DNA of 26,134 nt from a virus. Positions 21,329-26,134 of this stretch are shown here, in pieces; position 1 is the stretch's first letter, and each line of letters opens with the position of its first letter. The stretch spans positions 1-26,134 of the IMG/VR virus record IMGVR_UViG_3300003872_000013; one strand, 5' to 3'. The translations under genes and the position numbers were made by a program. The notes below the pieces were generated by a model, which saw nothing but the letters and a program-made list of their open reading frames with translations, made no database searches and was not told where the DNA came from.

Positions 21329-22120
21329 TTAGAGTGCAACATCCTCCATAAATTGTAGGAATGAATTTTTGTGATTTTCAGCACAAAGGTTGTAAATCTT
21401 TACAAATGCCAAAGCTTTTATAAATGCTTCATAGCCTTTCTTTTGCTCTTCTTTCAAAAACTCATCTGTTTTAATCGCATCATTGGCTATCTCATAAGCG
21501 GTGAGTCCCAAGCCCTCAGACAAATCATAAACGCTCGTATCTTGCAATGATGTAACAATAAGGTTATCATCTTGATATACCTCTTCAAATACACCTTTTA
21601 TGCCCATCTCTTTATCTCCAAAGAAGTAGAGAAACTCAGACTTTATTATGTCATTTTGTGTTGATTTTGTTTGATTGAGTATTACTACTATTTTGCTTGT
21701 GCTTTTTGCTCTGATGCGTTTGTACATATCTAGGAGGTTTTTCATACCACTTTTATTTTTTAGTACAGGGATGAAATAGACTACATGCTCATCTATGCCC
21801 ATACTCAAAAGTGAATCTACCAAAGCGTTGCTATCGTTACCACCTCCTGCATCTATCACAACGCTCTCATCGCTCAATACATCAAACATTGCTCTCAATG
21901 TCTCTTCTATGCCTTTTTCTACTTTAAAACTTTGAGAGTGAAATAGAGAGCTGGTGTATGTGTTTGTGATGTTGTTGTCATCTACCTCTATAAGCTTTAC
22001 CTTTTTTTTCTCTTTTTCATAGAGTAGGGCAGTCAATACTTGATTTGATAGAGTGCTTTTTCCTACACCACCTTTACTTGATACTGCAACTGCAAATATG
22101 CCTTTTTTCTCTTTACTCAT
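21329..22120 (-). CDS. ParA-type partition ATPase
   Basis: This 263-residue protein has the deviant Walker A box SKGGVGKST (residues 15-23, with the signature Lys16 and Lys21) of ParA/MinD ATPases. A Walker B-like VVIDAGGG lies in the first half and VVILNQTKS corresponds to the later conserved strand. No N-terminal helix-turn-helix is present, so it is of the small ParF/StbB-like kind. Partner: the RHH protein whose gene overlaps it by 8 bases upstream. Together they look like a type Ib partition pair, unusual in an integrase-bearing phage. Confidence 0.85.
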   Translation of the reverse strand: MSKEKKGIFAVAVSSKGGVGKSTLSNQVLTALLYEKEKKKVKLIEVDDNNITNTYTSSLFHSQSFKVEKGIEETLRAMFDVLSDESVVIDAGGGNDSNALVDSLLSMGIDEHVVYFIPVLKNKSGMKNLLDMYKRIRAKSTSKIVVILNQTKSTQNDIIKSEFLYFFGDKEMGIKGVFEEVYQDDNLIVTSLQDTSVYDLSEGLGLTAYEIANDAIKTDEFLKEEQKKGYEAFIKALAFVKIYNLCAENHKNSFLQFMEDVAL

Positions 22121-22328
22121 TATAAAACCTTTTTTTGAAATCTGATTTTTCCTTATTTTCTAAGGACTTTTGCGCAACATTTACTGAACTTTCCTTATGA
22201 AAGTATTGTTCTACAAGCATATACAAAAACTCTTGTTTGCTTGAATACTCTTTTCTTTTCCCACAAATAGCCGTTATATCATTAAAAAGCTCAGGTGGTA
22301 CTGCTAAAGTGATTTTTCTTTCAATCAT
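22113..22328 (-). CDS. ribbon-helix-helix DNA-binding protein (partition partner)
   Basis: This 71-residue protein starts RKITLAVPPELFNDITAI, a beta strand followed by a helix, then SSKQEFLYMLVEQYF. That is the ribbon-helix-helix layout ('..itv.vp.el...i........s.seflr.ll...'). In type Ib partition systems such a protein binds repeats that act both as operator and centromere. TAAGGA/TCCTTA repeats occur just upstream and in its 3' part. The C-terminal ~25 residues are a charged tail that may stimulate the ATPase. Confidence 0.8.
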   Translation of the reverse strand: MIERKITLAVPPELFNDITAICGKRKEYSSKQEFLYMLVEQYFHKESSVNVAQKSLENKEKSDFKKRFYNE

Positions 22329-22496: not shown

Positions 22497-22636
22497 ATTT
22501 TTTCCTTATATTTTTTTATAAAACTCTGTGCAACATACAGAGGAAAGCCCATGTCATTAAGCTGCAACTGTATGCTACATCGAGGTTTATAGAAGCGATT
22601 TGCCTTTCCCAAATCTACATGCTGCCTTAAAAGCAC
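22493..22636 (-). CDS. 47-codon ORF, first of the leftward operon
   Basis: The frame starts at GTG 22636 (no good ribosome site) and ends in an ATGA overlap with the next ORF. The product reads MLLRQHVDLGKANRFYKPR, then NDMGFPLYVAQSFIKKYKEK, which looks like genuine protein. Within it CTCTGT-GCAACAT-ACAGAG is a perfect 6-bp hairpin. An alternative view, a structured RNA, was considered. The coupled overlap favours a protein. Confidence 0.45.
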   Translation of the reverse strand: MLLRQHVDLGKANRFYKPRCSIQLQLNDMGFPLYVAQSFIKKYKEKI

Positions 22637-22682
22637 ATAGTTTTTTCACTACTGTTTTGTTGAGCCTATGTTTGCGGATAGG

Positions 22683-22709
22683 TTTACATGTAAAAGGTTT
22701 TGATATAAT
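22683..22709 (+). promoter_or_regulatory. promoter with palindromic operator before the 22728 gene
   Basis: TATAAT at 22704-22709 lies 18 bases ahead of the ATG. The -35 area is covered by the perfect 12-bp palindrome TTTACATGTAAA (22683-22694). A second inverted repeat, CCTAT-8-ATAGG, lies at 22665-22682. Both sit between the divergent 22493-22636 and 22728 genes and could control both. Confidence 0.5.
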
Positions 22710-22727
22710 TTGAAAAAAGGATAGTTT

Positions 22728-22994
22728 ATGGATATTTCTCTTGTAGGGTTGAGTGTAAACATTGGCTTACTTGCTACTGGTTTGGGAGTAGGGTATAAAA
22801 TAGGCTACACGCACTCCGAATCAAAAAAAGTTACAAAGATGAAAAAACCATGTTCTATCCTCTTTGAGCACAATAAGACTACTTGGAAAGAGCCTGTTGT
22901 CTATTATAATGGAAACAAGCCATTTACTAATACCTGCGAAGCACTTATAAAAAACAAGTGCCGCTACACAAACAAGCGATGTCAGTTACTCTGA
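22728..22994 (+). CDS. membrane-anchored Cys-containing small protein
   Basis: This 88-residue protein follows AAAAAAGGA and has an N-terminal hydrophobic helix (residues ~5-25, LVGLSVNIGLLATGLGVGYKIG). A basic, polar domain with four cysteines follows (C42, C70, C78, C85; e.g. KPCSILFEH and NKCRYTNKRC). It is the first rightward gene after the early operon, with its own promoter and terminator, as expected for a lysogenic-conversion (moron) gene. No family is recognised. Confidence 0.6.
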   Translation: MDISLVGLSVNIGLLATGLGVGYKIGYTHSESKKVTKMKKPCSILFEHNKTTWKEPVVYYNGNKPFTNTCEALIKNKCRYTNKRCQLL

Positions 22995-23059
22995 AATGCA
23001 CCAATGGCAAAGCCAACAGCTAAACCCACAAAAAGCCATACAAAATTTATATCTTCCAT
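22982..23059 (-). CDS. 25-residue single-span membrane peptide
   Basis: ATG 23059 has AAAAGGAAAAA ahead. The peptide MEDINF plus VWLFVGLAVGFAIGA ends FQSN. It converges on and overlaps the 22728-22994 gene by 13 bases. It resembles the other mini membrane peptides of the window in size, but its sequence is not clearly related. It could be regulated by antisense overlap. Confidence 0.45.
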   Translation of the reverse strand: MEDINFVWLFVGLAVGFAIGAFQSN

Positions 23060-23083
23060 ATTTTTCCTTTTAACAATCATAAA

Positions 23084-23132
23084 TCAAAACAACACAAACA
23101 AAGCCAACTCCGAAAGCTGGTTTTTTGTTTGG
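23084..23132 (+). terminator. 49-bp repeated terminator, copy 1
   Basis: AAGCCAACT and AGCTGGTTT pair around the loop CCGAA with one mismatch and one G-U, followed by a T-rich tract (TTTTTTGTTT). The 49 bp are identical to 23729-23777. It follows the rightward gene ending at 22994. The other strand is also T-rich after the stem, so it may work both ways. Confidence 0.75.
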
Positions 23133-23139
23133 TTATCTT

Positions 23140-23163
23140 GAATTATCACTGATAATGCTTATC
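23140..23163 (+). promoter_or_regulatory. 24-bp regulatory element, copy 1 (before 23237 gene)
   Basis: The element contains the perfect 13-bp palindrome TTATCA-C-TGATAA (23143-23155). An inverted copy at 23707-23730 matches 23 of 24 bases. Each copy precedes one gene of the convergent pair in the same orientation relative to that gene. Confidence 0.6.
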
Positions 23164-23186
23164 TGTTTAAAATATTCACGGTGAAA

Positions 23187-23229
23187 CCTTTGTGGTATAA
23201 TTAAGTTGCAACAAAAATCAACACAAAGG
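23187..23229 (+). promoter_or_regulatory. extended -10 promoter bracketed by an inverted repeat
   Basis: TGGTATAAT (23193-23201) is an extended -10. It is flanked by CCTTTGTG (23187-23194) and CACAAAGG (23222-23229), perfect 8-bp arms, with GTTGCAAC between them. The right arm also supplies the AAAGG ribosome site of the 23237 gene, so a bound protein or a hairpin could block both transcription and translation. Confidence 0.55.
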
Positions 23230-23236
23230 CTTCATC

Positions 23237-23491
23237 ATGAAGATAGAAGTAAAATATATAGACCAAGGAATATCGAGATTTTCACATGTAGATACTATGG
23301 ATTATCTCCCAAGAGTAGGAGAAATCATTATAAATGAAGAACTCGCAGACAGAGGTTGTAGTGGAAGATTTGTCATAAACGACATATTTCATACAAAAAC
23401 AAGCGAAGGTTTTAAATGCACTGTGAAGTGCATAGAAATATCTGACGAAGATGACATGAGATTTAGACTCCAAGAGTCAGGTCATTTGTAG
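23237..23491 (+). CDS. hypothetical protein, convergent pair member 1
   Basis: This 84-residue protein begins MKIEVKYIDQGISRFSHV and has RVGEIIINEELADRGCSGRFVINDIFH, then TVKCIEIS. It is beta-rich with a small-barrel appearance. No family is recognised. It faces the 23482-23691 gene and overlaps it by 10 bases. Each gene is preceded by a copy of the same 24-bp element, suggesting joint control. Confidence 0.6.
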   Translation: MKIEVKYIDQGISRFSHVDTMDYLPRVGEIIINEELADRGCSGRFVINDIFHTKTSEGFKCTVKCIEISDEDDMRFRLQESGHL

Positions 23492-23691
23492 ATTTTTTCA
23501 AATAACTTTTGTTGGAGTGAATCTAAATTTGCTCCAATAGACTCTATCTCTTCAAAAATTGGTGCTAACTCCTCTCTACTATAACCATCTCTTATTAATA
23601 TATACAAACTGCTGTTTAGTTTTAGCTTTGCATCTATCATCTTCTCTGTGGCACGTACCAAGCTTTTTATCTTTTTTGGTGCTAATAGCAT
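23482..23691 (-). CDS. hypothetical helical protein, convergent pair member 2
   Basis: This 69-residue protein (MLLAPKKIKSLVRATEKMID... SREELAPIFEEIESIGANLD) is almost entirely helical and looks like a two-helix coiled coil. TAAGGAAAG precedes the ATG. Its 3' end overlaps the opposite gene by 10 bases, so simultaneous strong expression of both would interfere. Function unknown. Confidence 0.6.
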   Translation of the reverse strand: MLLAPKKIKSLVRATEKMIDAKLKLNSSLYILIRDGYSREELAPIFEEIESIGANLDSLQQKLFEKIYK

Positions 23692-23706
23692 TTACTCTTT
23701 CCTTAC

Positions 23707-23730
23707 GATAAGCATTAACAGTGATAATTC
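23707..23730 (-). promoter_or_regulatory. 24-bp regulatory element, copy 2 (before 23691 gene)
   Basis: This is the inverted copy of the element at 23140-23163 with one mismatch. On the minus strand TTGAAT-16-TATCGT within and beside it could serve as promoter boxes for the 23482-23691 gene. It overlaps terminator copy 2 by two bases. Confidence 0.55.
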
Positions 23731-23777
23731 AAAACAACACAAACAAAGCCAACTCCGAAAGCTGGTTTTTTGTTTGG
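23729..23777 (+). terminator. 49-bp repeated terminator, copy 2
   Basis: It is identical to 23084-23132. It lies about 240 bases after the 23237-23491 stop and before the GTAC operator array, insulating the next rightward promoter. Confidence 0.75.
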
Positions 23778-23786
23778 ATAAGAGAA

Positions 23787-23850
23787 TAGTACAATAAGTA
23801 CATTTAAAGAGTACTTAAATTAAGTACTCAATGTACTATTATGCTATAAT
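23787..23850 (+). promoter_or_regulatory. symmetric GTAC operator array and extended -10 promoter
   Basis: GTAC cores start at 23789, 23798, 23811, 23824 and 23833, with spacings 9-13-13-9, mirror-symmetric about the middle one. Within it GAGTACTTAA-A-TTAAGTACTC (23809-23829) is a perfect 21-bp dyad. The extended -10 TGCTATAAT (23842-23850) follows directly, so the array covers the -35 zone and probably represses the 23880 gene. Confidence 0.65.
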
Positions 23851-23879
23851 TCTACTTGAAATTAAAAAAAGGATGGTAG

Positions 23880-24107
23880 ATGAGAGAAACATTGATAAAG
23901 TTAGACGATATTAACAAAGAGCTTCAACAGAAGTTACATGTAAAAGATGGAGTTGCTTCTATAGATAAAAAGTGGTTGTTTGTATTTGATACTATTTTAG
24001 AGGATATTATTCAAAGCAGGGTGGTTGTAGATTTTGCAACAAAAAAAGGTGATGGTATTGACTGGGAGTTTGTGCAAAACAGCATGAAAAAGACAAAGAG
24101 GCATTAA
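23880..24107 (+). CDS. hypothetical protein under the GTAC array
   Basis: This 75-residue protein follows AAAAAGGA. It has a helical start (TLIKLDDINKELQQKLHVKDG) and a second helix (KKWLFVFDTILEDIIQSRVVVDFA). It lacks a clear HTH but is small and basic at its end (MKKTKRH). It could be the regulator that binds the GTAC array (autoregulation) or the regulated product; the sequence does not decide. It ends inside a 9-bp hairpin shared with the opposite gene. Confidence 0.6.
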   Translation: MRETLIKLDDINKELQQKLHVKDGVASIDKKWLFVFDTILEDIIQSRVVVDFATKKGDGIDWEFVQNSMKKTKRH

Positions 24108-24124
24108 GTAAAAATTTAATGCCT
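24099..24124. terminator. bidirectional hairpin between convergent genes
   Basis: AGGCATTAA and TTAATGCCT form perfect 9-bp arms around an 8-base loop. The stem contains the stop codon of the rightward gene and part of the leftward stop. In the minus direction a T-rich tract (CTCTTTGTCTTTTTC) follows, so it should terminate the leftward 24123-24809 transcript best. Confidence 0.6.
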
Positions 24125-24809
24125 ACTGTTCCAAAGCAATAACAAAGTCGATCGCATAATCTATATTTTCAGAGATAAATGCGGTCGTCTCTTTTACATC
24201 TTTTGCTTTTTTTACTACTGTGAGGAGTTTATCGAGTATGCTTTTTGACTCTTGTGTCTTTTCAAGGATACATTTGAAGAGATAAAAGTCTTCACTTAGT
24301 CCTATTATTCCTCTATATTTATAATTCTTTATAGATTTTTTTATCTTATGCATCACAAGTATCATAATCTTTTTTGTTTCATCATCTAGTTCAAGAGACA
24401 TTATAGAATCAAGAAATTTATCAATCTCACTGTCAAACATATCTAGTGAGTCCTGTATATCATTTTCTTGATATTTTTTATTTGAAAAACTGTCAGAGAG
24501 TATCATAAATGAGAGTTCTAAATCATTTAAGTCATTTTGAAAACTGCTTATATAGCTTTCAAGATTTAGTGGAAGTATAAATTTATGAACACTTTTAAGT
24601 ATTCGCTCGTAGTTGTTATATCGTCCTATCGCATCTATTTCATTTTCTATTACATGTAAATTTTGTTGATAAATATGTAAAATTTCATAGATTTCATAGA
24701 TACTATCTGTTTTAAAAATCTCTTTATATATATTAATGAGTCTTGTGTTTAATTTTCTTCTCTTATGCAACTCTTTTAATAAATCGTAGATTCTACTTGC
24801 CGGGTTCAT
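24123..24809 (-). CDS. 228-residue helical protein, unknown
   Basis: This protein is almost entirely alpha-helical (YDLLKELHKRRKLNTRLINI, SLDMFDSEIDKFLDSIMSLE, ILEKTQESKSILDKLL) without membrane segments or recognised motifs. AAAAAAAGGA precedes the ATG. Its promoter shares the 16-bp core of the Panacea gene's promoter, so the two may be expressed alike. Lying directly downstream of the antitoxin/partner pair, it may be a further component of that system, but this is inference from context. Confidence 0.6.
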   Translation of the reverse strand: MNPASRIYDLLKELHKRRKLNTRLINIYKEIFKTDSIYEIYEILHIYQQNLHVIENEIDAIGRYNNYERILKSVHKFILPLNLESYISSFQNDLNDLELSFMILSDSFSNKKYQENDIQDSLDMFDSEIDKFLDSIMSLELDDETKKIMILVMHKIKKSIKNYKYRGIIGLSEDFYLFKCILEKTQESKSILDKLLTVVKKAKDVKETTAFISENIDYAIDFVIALEQ

Positions 24810-24862: not shown

Positions 24863-25144
24863 TTATTTGCATTTCATTTTTATATTTACAACTTCAAAAG
24901 AGCTGGTAAAACTATAGTATAAATAGAGGGTGCAATTAATCTTATCTATATTCTGTTTTATAAAATAATTTTCATTTGATACTTGATAACCAGTATGTTT
25001 ATCTCTACTAGCAAGAAAGCATAAAGAGTTTATTATGAGAATAATAATATTGTGATGAGTGTTGAAATAGTTATGCAATGATATTTGAGCATCATTAGAG
25101 AAGTCATATATTTCAAAGAGGTCGCTTGGTTTGTTAGGAAGCAA
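24863..25144 (-). CDS. unknown protein overlapping the Panacea gene; candidate toxin
   Basis: This 93-residue protein starts at ATG 25144, 11 bases inside the end of the upstream gene, so it depends on its translation. It begins MLPNKPSDLFEIYDFSNDAQ and has a helix rich in Ile/Leu (NIIILIINSLCFLAS). A strand-rich end follows (INCTLYLYYSFTSS, EVVNIKMKCK). No toxin family is recognised; the final strands superficially recall RelE/ParE folds. Small size and coupling behind a Panacea antitoxin are what suggest a toxin. Confidence 0.6.
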   Translation of the reverse strand: MLPNKPSDLFEIYDFSNDAQISLHNYFNTHHNIIILIINSLCFLASRDKHTGYQVSNENYFIKQNIDKINCTLYLYYSFTSSFEVVNIKMKCK

Positions 25145-25655
25145 AAATAGCTCCTGCTTCTTTAATTTCTTCTTCTGTTATGTCATCTGCAATATCTACA
25201 GAAAAAACAGTCTCTATTGGTATAATTTGCCCTATTTTTGCCAACTCCCAAGCTTTGTTGTGAGAGATATTGGAGATACTAGTTGCACTGTGTCTATTTG
25301 CTATCTTTTCTATATATTTGTCTATTATGCTTATTTCATTTGCTGTAAAACCTGAAATATCAGGCTCTTTTATAGATATAAATGAGTGTTGAATATAGTT
25401 GCCAAGAGGAACATTTTTTTTTATAATAGCACCATCTTTTACTAATAATCTTAAAATAGCATCTATTTTTTTAGGTACTGGACCATTTTTCAACTTGATA
25501 TAATCACTATGAGATATAGATGTAAAATTATTATACATATACTCCCTATCTGCAAACCATAAAATTTTATTCAATTTTACTTTTCCAAGTTTTTTGAAGT
25601 CAATATCCGTTTGTCTATTAATAATATAATGCACAAGATTATAAAGTCTTTTCAT
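25134..25655 (-). CDS. Panacea-domain (SocA-like) antitoxin
   Basis: This 173-residue protein matches the Panacea/DUF4065 family. KVKLNKILWFADREYMYNN and SHSDYIKLKNGPVPKKIDAIL (residues ~25-68) correspond to the family's 'klqKLlyfad......g....d.y.k..yGPVp' core. ISHNKAWELAKIGQIIP near residues 130-146 matches its late 'lSH...aw' segment. Panacea proteins neutralise many unrelated toxins encoded next to them. Here the next gene overlaps its end by 11 bases. It has its own promoter (P2). Confidence 0.8.
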   Translation of the reverse strand: MKRLYNLVHYIINRQTDIDFKKLGKVKLNKILWFADREYMYNNFTSISHSDYIKLKNGPVPKKIDAILRLLVKDGAIIKKNVPLGNYIQHSFISIKEPDISGFTANEISIIDKYIEKIANRHSATSISNISHNKAWELAKIGQIIPIETVFSVDIADDITEEEIKEAGAIFAS

Positions 25656-25701: not shown

Positions 25702-26134
25702 TTAGAGGCTTAGTACCATTTTCAAAATATCTCTTTGCTCTTGTTCGCTTTTTTCATTGAAAATCTCTAAGAGTGTCATGGCTCTGTGGTTGAGTGGCTC
25801 TTGAGGAGTTGTGTTGTGGCTGTTTGTGGTAATGCTGTTTTCATCTCCATCTACAATAGTGCCTGAGTTATTGAAATTTTTTTGGGTAGAGTAGTAGAGG
25901 TCGATGAGTCTTTGTGTCTCTTGAGATGGATTTTTGAGAATATCTTTAAGTATTTTTTGCTTTTTTTTATCACTTTTTATTATTTTTGCCGTATTATCTG
26001 GGATTTCATAAAATTCACTATGCATTTTATGATCAAGTATATTTTCACATTCCACAGGTTTAAAAGTTCCGGCTCCAACATGTAAAGTAAGATAATAAAC
26101 TTCATAAAGTTTTTTCATTTTTTCAAAAAGTTCA
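25702..26134 (-). pseudogene. queA: queA fragment fused to unrelated C-terminus (5' end outside window)
   Basis: The frame is open to the window edge (…ELFEK before the Met at 26118). It then reads [19 protein letters not shown] and [14 protein letters not shown]. This is the conserved core of S-adenosylmethionine:tRNA ribosyltransferase-isomerase QueA (E. coli: [13 protein letters not shown]...DTIEDHIMHSEYAEVP), which makes epoxyqueuosine in tRNA. After SDKK, near 25,963, the expected GTTSVRSLE, PGF..KVVDALITNFHLP and YRFFSYGDAM segments are absent. About 86 residues of Gln/Asn/Ser-rich sequence follow instead, ending DILKMVLSL. The truncated product should be inactive. It marks a probable junction between host chromosome and the element. 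Confidence 0.75.

Follow-up and report, generated by a model that had tools for sequence, protein, structure and literature searches.

A convergent gene pair in the accessory region of a Campylobacterota phage: a probable moron-like cassette with two-way terminators and a predicted read-through hairpin

We analysed a convergent gene pair in a 26,134-base stretch of a virus record (the window; all coordinates are window positions) and found it to be located in the accessory region of a bacterial virus. Our main reading, to which we assign a probability of roughly 60 %, is that the pair constitutes a self-contained, moron-like accessory cassette of a Campylobacterota phage, with its own promoters, recurring two-way terminators and double insulation by a terminator and a hairpin. 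This phage is probably temperate. Comparison shows that the stretch from element to element is kept as a unit, while the neighbour cassettes differ around it. As phage cargo, the cassette belongs to a familiar kind, to which it adds a new example; it should not be taken for a proven genetic switch. The first-pass annotation had read the same layout as a bistable or balanced two-gene module under one regulator; what it observed is correct, and its interpretation is partly supported.

The two genes, an 84-codon ORF on the plus strand and a 69-codon ORF on the minus strand (hereafter the (+) and (-) genes), converge and overlap tail to tail by exactly 10 bp, as had been described (Table 1). The element reported before each of them is present at both genes but measures 26 bp instead of 24 bp, with the consensus TTGAATTATCACTG(A/T)TAATGCTTATC and one mismatch between the copies (25/26 identical). 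Its dyad, TTATCA-C-TGATAA, is perfect in the left copy only, the right copy reading TGTTAA. The identical 49-bp terminators outside the pair (TCAAAACAACACAAACAAAGCCAACTCCGAAAGCTGGTTTTTTGTTTGG) were found at both sites, within a 66-bp repeat of 94 % identity. This terminator folds on both strands, with a moderate advantage over shuffled controls (z −1.6 to −2.3). Also within the repeat, at 23070-23083, lies a diverged version of the (-) promoter region, which had been missed.

Table 1. Features of the gene pair and of the adjoining cassettes
Feature	Position	Strand	Remarks
88-aa gene of neighbour cassette	22728-22994	+	no relative found
25-codon ORF MEDINFVWLFVGLAVGFAIGAFQSN	22982-23059	-	converges with the 88-aa gene; AAGGA-type Shine-Dalgarno and TATGAT before the start
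Boundary module 1, 66 bp	23070-23135		bidirectional terminator 23084-23132 and (-) promoter region of the left neighbour cassette; absent here in L010
Element, left copy TTGAATTATCACTGATAATGCTTATC	23138-23163	+	24/26 kept in L010
Inverted repeat, left arm TTCACGGTGAAACCTTTGTG	23175-23194	+	kept in L010 and G221; upstream of the inferred transcription start
(+) −10 box TATAAT (promoter TGGTATAAT)	23196-23201	+	same position in L010 and G221; transcription start inferred near 23208
Inverted repeat, right arm	23222-23241	-	contains Shine-Dalgarno AAAGG and start codon
84-aa gene	23237-23491	+	orphan family; predicted partly beta (low-confidence model)
69-aa gene	23482-23691	-	predicted two-helix hairpin (pLDDT 88)
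Element, right copy	23707-23732	-	26/26 identical in L010; directly before AAGGA Shine-Dalgarno
Boundary module 2	23715-23780		bidirectional terminator 23729-23777 and (-) promoter region
Operator-like palindromic region and promoter TTATGCTATAATTC of next cassette	23785-23852	+	L010: different operator sequence, same −10
75-aa ORF of next cassette	23880-24107	+	promoter at 23785-23852

Both proteins are also encoded by a viral contig of 20,853 bases (L010). There, a conserved non-coding block of 182 bp is followed by the left element, the (+) and (-) genes and the right element, and then by a single terminator and a type II methyltransferase gene. The flanks of the cassette thus differ in this related phage: L010 lacks the neighbour cassette, and its right neighbour is not that of the window. 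Between the two sequences, identity is 97 % from the element to the −10 box, 95 % from there to the ATG and 100 % in the Shine-Dalgarno spacer. A further (+) homologue comes from G221, a genome of the same class, where it lies in a prophage-like region that also encodes a cI-type repressor, ParA and ParB; it is met by a convergent ORF, with a 41-bp overlap, that significantly resembles the L010 partner. The window itself carries a ParA-like ATPase and a 71-aa upstream ORF at 21329-22328 (-), with no ParB recognised, and the G221 pair adjoins ParA/ParB.

Compared with L010, the window is longer by about 437 bp in the interval that separates the non-coding block from the left element. These extra bases represent a second small convergent pair, with a 13-bp overlap, which the first-pass annotation had missed and which ends in a copy of the same boundary module. 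This second pair (22700-23137) is inserted or lost beside the studied pair. For its 88-aa gene, relatives were sought and none found; its 25-codon ORF possibly encodes a small membrane peptide. Because the extra pair ends in a copy of the boundary module and L010, which has the right terminator only, lacks both, the left terminator belongs to the neighbour. The identical terminators therefore record a repeated cassette boundary and are not part of a two-gene circuit. In L010, GCCGCC..GGCGG takes the place of the terminator stem between preserved flanks, and the hairpin form is retained at 67 % stem identity (GCCAACTCCGAAAGCTGG in one sequence, GCCGCCATGTTTCAGGCGG in the other). A search for the stem in viral contigs gave seven matches, which were dismissed as chance occurrences in unrelated sequence.

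On the right, the −10 region of the next cassette is 100 % identical between the window and L010, whereas the operator region is only 57 % identical. In the window, the palindromic array at 23785-23847, with GAGTACTTAAATTAAGTACTC between AATAGTAC repeats, precedes the 75-aa ORF and its −10 is as in L010; the array is perhaps a candidate operator of this phage's own, unseen repressor. The L010 cassette lies in the same stretch as a restriction-modification (R-M) pair and cI. An operator, GATACAATATGTATC, occurs in L010 at 3768, 3803, 7516 and 7574, beside an S24-type cI gene and at the type II methyltransferase promoter; the methyltransferase gene converges, with a 15-bp overlap, with its HATPase-type restriction enzyme gene. 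Given these operator copies at the methyltransferase cassette, the R-M neighbour is apparently under immunity control by the phage repressor. The cI-type operator is absent from the L010 pair's own promoters; since the neighbour has it and the pair does not, insulation between them would be meaningful.

We then considered the 26-bp element. Only the two copies were found with a 21-bp pattern and up to three mismatches (chance expectation 0.01). Identity between the window and L010 is 92 % for the left and 100 % for the right element, exceeding that of coding DNA (87 % for the (+) gene and 69 % for the (-) gene); the elements are thus probably functional, and control of two genes by one regulator is possible. 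However, an identical role at both genes, as had been supposed, is hardly possible, because the distances to the two promoters differ. The right element ends about 16 nt before the (-) start codon and should therefore hold the (-) promoter, probably with TATCAC at about 23719-23724, whereas some 30-50 bp separate the left element from the conserved (+) TATAAT downstream of it. In the diverged (-) promoter copy of the neighbour cassette, TATGAT is aligned to this TATCAC and the dyad is gone, which suggests that the right element's shared function is that of a promoter.

These data bear on the proposal that one regulator (either protein, or a phage or host factor) binds both elements and, together with convergent interference, forms a bistable or balanced module. 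Consistent with it are the presence of the element at both genes in two phages, its conservation beyond that of coding DNA, its TTATC half-sites spaced by 3 bp, and the pair in G221, which stays convergent and overlapping; moreover, convergent transcription can yield bistability in models (PMC3134472). We nevertheless consider this proposal unlikely. Apart from the unequal distances to the promoters, the dyad is broken in the right window copy and in both L010 copies. A search of relatives showed that L010 keeps both genes and both elements, but that in G221 no repeat is common to the upstream regions of the two genes, which argues that the element is not intrinsic to the pair. Bistability as such is unsupported, and no DNA-binding domain was recognised in either protein, which does not exclude one. 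As a host regulon, the element was rejected: there was no match with fewer than three mismatches in 41 genomes of one genus, and the counts were near those of the control. As a cI operator it was also rejected, GATACAATATGTATC being absent at the pair's cassette and the element not lying near L010 cI. Insulation alone does not explain why the left element is so strongly conserved, and the 26-bp element may have a regulator of its own. A more specific version, in which the 26-bp element is the operator for a cassette-encoded regulator (one of the orphan proteins) and antisense transcription and hairpin set a ratio or two states in an undescribed paired phage-protein family, appears to us quite doubtful.

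The same elements could in principle be recombination sites, that is, terminal or inversion repeats of a mobile or invertible core. As near-perfect inverted repeats they bound the core, and just outside the left element the flank is wholly different between the window and L010 (1/8 bases identical). Their orientation is, however, the same in both phages, no target-site duplication was detected at the element ends, and no invertase or transposase was recognised among the accessory ORFs examined; in addition, the right element runs straight into the Shine-Dalgarno sequence, as a promoter would. Recombination sites are therefore very improbable.

Next, we turned to the (+) promoter, TGGTATAAT, which fits the Campylobacter sigma70 consensus (PMC3656092). 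Its −10 box is flanked by a long inverted repeat, a stronger dyad than that of the element and one that had been overlooked; this repeat is conserved in the window, L010 and G221. Folded as RNA, it gives energies of −20.2, −17.6 and −26.1 kcal/mol in the window, L010 and G221, with z scores of −4.7, −3.3 and −3.9, respectively. In G221, the left arm has one more C and the right arm one more G to match it, and one pair of the outer stem is changed on both sides. Because the hairpin is known from three loci, this covariation is thin (one matched insertion and one two-sided change). In all three loci, the Shine-Dalgarno sequence and AUG are predicted to pair with sequence upstream of the inferred own start. 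The predicted openness from the Shine-Dalgarno sequence to the AUG is 0.47/0.55/0.65 in the transcript with its own start and 0.14/0.21/0.21 in a read-through transcript (three loci). The inverted repeat is thus predicted to be a read-through-silencing hairpin like that of T4 gene e.

As a dyad, it could equally be a DNA operator. The two arms might serve a looping repressor instead of forming an RNA hairpin, the cassette being otherwise unchanged: they flank the −10 box at a centre-to-centre distance of about 47-48 bp, and in the window each contains an 11-bp palindrome, TTCACGGTGAA and TTCATCATGAA (one mismatch to symmetry). G221, however, loses the arm palindromes and keeps the complementarity between the arms, and in three of the three loci the right arm coincides with the Shine-Dalgarno sequence and start codon. 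We regard such an operator pair as possible but somewhat doubtful.

Both proteins are orphans. Homologues of the 84-aa (+) protein are 79 % (L010), 49 % (G221) and 27 % (G418) identical, and purifying selection appears to act on its gene (dN/dS 0.24, window versus L010). It belongs to no family in Pfam, PHROG, NCBIfam or PADLOC, and its structure model is of low confidence (59.9), so that structural matches are meaningless. In a wide search, G221 was the sole convincing hit among about 400 genomes of the class or phylum, with G418 in the genus; tblastn with the G221 and G418 proteins detected no homologues in phages and plasmids. The G418 homologue, the more distant, has no recognised partner and adjoins a BRCT-domain gene. 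This chromosomal copy (L102 6562-7365) lies directly downstream of that gene, a hint to a DNA-related role of the G418 homologue.

The 69-aa (-) protein is 46 % identical to its L010 copy and its gene evolves fast (dN/dS 0.56, window versus L010). Its amino-acid identity does not exceed that obtained in neutral simulation, and its frame would remain open without selection in 5 % of simulations. The two-helix model had no significant structural match. Compared with the G221 partner, the L010 protein scored 71 against a maximum of 51 in 2000 shuffles; the window protein, more diverged than that of L010, scored 30, which was reached by 233/2000 shuffles. No DNA-binding family was found in either protein. 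Rfam gave no match at the gathering level, and phage records gave none at the DNA level. A toxin-antitoxin or similar functional couple, with the convergent layout enforcing the ratio, would agree with the co-occurrence of the same layout in three phages or prophages and with the convergent R-M pair (15-bp overlap) adjoining the pair in L010. Neither protein, however, showed similarity to known toxin or antitoxin families or defence proteins, and the (+) homologue of G418 stands alone without a partner. Such a couple therefore seems improbable.

Taken as an accessory cassette, with terminators and with its own promoters, the latter recognised by sequence and conservation, the pair would work as follows. 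The (-) gene would be transcribed from a promoter inside the right 26-bp element, and the (+) gene from the TATAAT at 23196, while the border terminators would stop transcription both ways. In any transcript started upstream, by terminator leakage or by initiation in the left element, the left arm would fold onto the ribosome-binding site and start codon, and the folded read-through transcript would go untranslated, as in T4 gene e. The (+) gene would thus be insulated twice, by the terminator and then by the hairpin. Interference had been expected at the gene ends; since there is no terminator between the genes, each transcript would instead run antisense through the whole of the opposite gene, and with transcripts complementary over the 0.5-kb core, mutual damping is likely. 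In addition, the 26-bp element may bind a regulator.

Several further features were noted in the window. The 182-bp non-coding block (22519-22704, minus strand), which has a terminator at its end, shares about 90-94 % identity with its L010 counterpart. It folds well on the minus strand (z −3.7), with one compensatory pair, and had no match in Rfam or in about 400 Campylobacterota genomes; it may be a small RNA of the phage or the terminator-bearing 3′ end of leftward transcripts. At 22524-22580 (-), the pairing GCATACAG..CTGTATGTTGC competes with a terminator hairpin, CTCTG..CAGAG, and could form a candidate terminator/antiterminator switch. A protein with a SocA/Panacea antitoxin domain is encoded at 25134-25655 (-), and the adjacent orphan ORF at 24123-24809 could be a candidate toxin partner. 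The ORF at 25702-26133 (-) is cut off by the end of the window; it opens with a C-terminal segment of QueA (queuosine synthesis), followed by unrelated sequence. Its best matches are only about 62 % identical, and it could be a fused or truncated gene or an integration junction.

This cassette shows how accessory genes are packed in a phage of an understudied bacterial phylum: shared two-way terminators separate convergent pairs, and an RNA hairpin is predicted to guard a second time against read-through. Such double protection hints that untimely production of the (+) protein must be avoided, which makes this protein a worthwhile candidate for a phage-host interaction factor, and the two protein families are unnamed and testable.

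Morons are acquired as single genes, often carrying promoters and terminators of their own (PMC2147016). Like phage morons and prophage accessory loci of HK97-type and lambdoid phages, the cassette has its own promoters and terminators, lies among accessory genes, varies in its flanks between relatives and has no recognised role in phage growth. Unlike in morons, two convergent genes here occupy a single cassette, and a repeated boundary module is common to adjacent cassettes. Expression in the lysogen is a usual trait of morons; for the present cassette, the relevant observation is that its L010 copy lacks the cI-type operator. A read-through hairpin that hides the ribosome-binding site is found in T4 genes e, soc, 49 and I-TevI (PMC3014915) and in segB and mobE (PMC2988022). 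As in T4 e, soc, I-TevI, segB and mobE, the site would be hidden only in upstream-started transcripts, the own promoter starting inside the hairpin region. In contrast to the T4 hairpins, the present one is predicted, goes with a housekeeping-type promoter and a probably temperate phage, and its loop, which includes the −10 box, spans about 27 nt. The PeSL cassettes (early promoter plus stem-loop) of T4-type phages, reportedly described by Arbiol et al. in 2010, are said to be repeated promoter and terminator modules that can promote cassette shuffling. Repeated promoter and terminator modules likewise lie at the gene boundaries here, but in two copies only, carrying a reverse promoter and a bidirectional terminator, and recombination between them would be conjectural. 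Finally, as at convergent interfering pairs such as scbA-scbR, the transcripts are complementary and the polymerases would run head-on; at scbA-scbR, the overlap is a 53-bp stretch close to the promoters and a known repressor is among the products, whereas here only the 3′ ends of the genes overlap.
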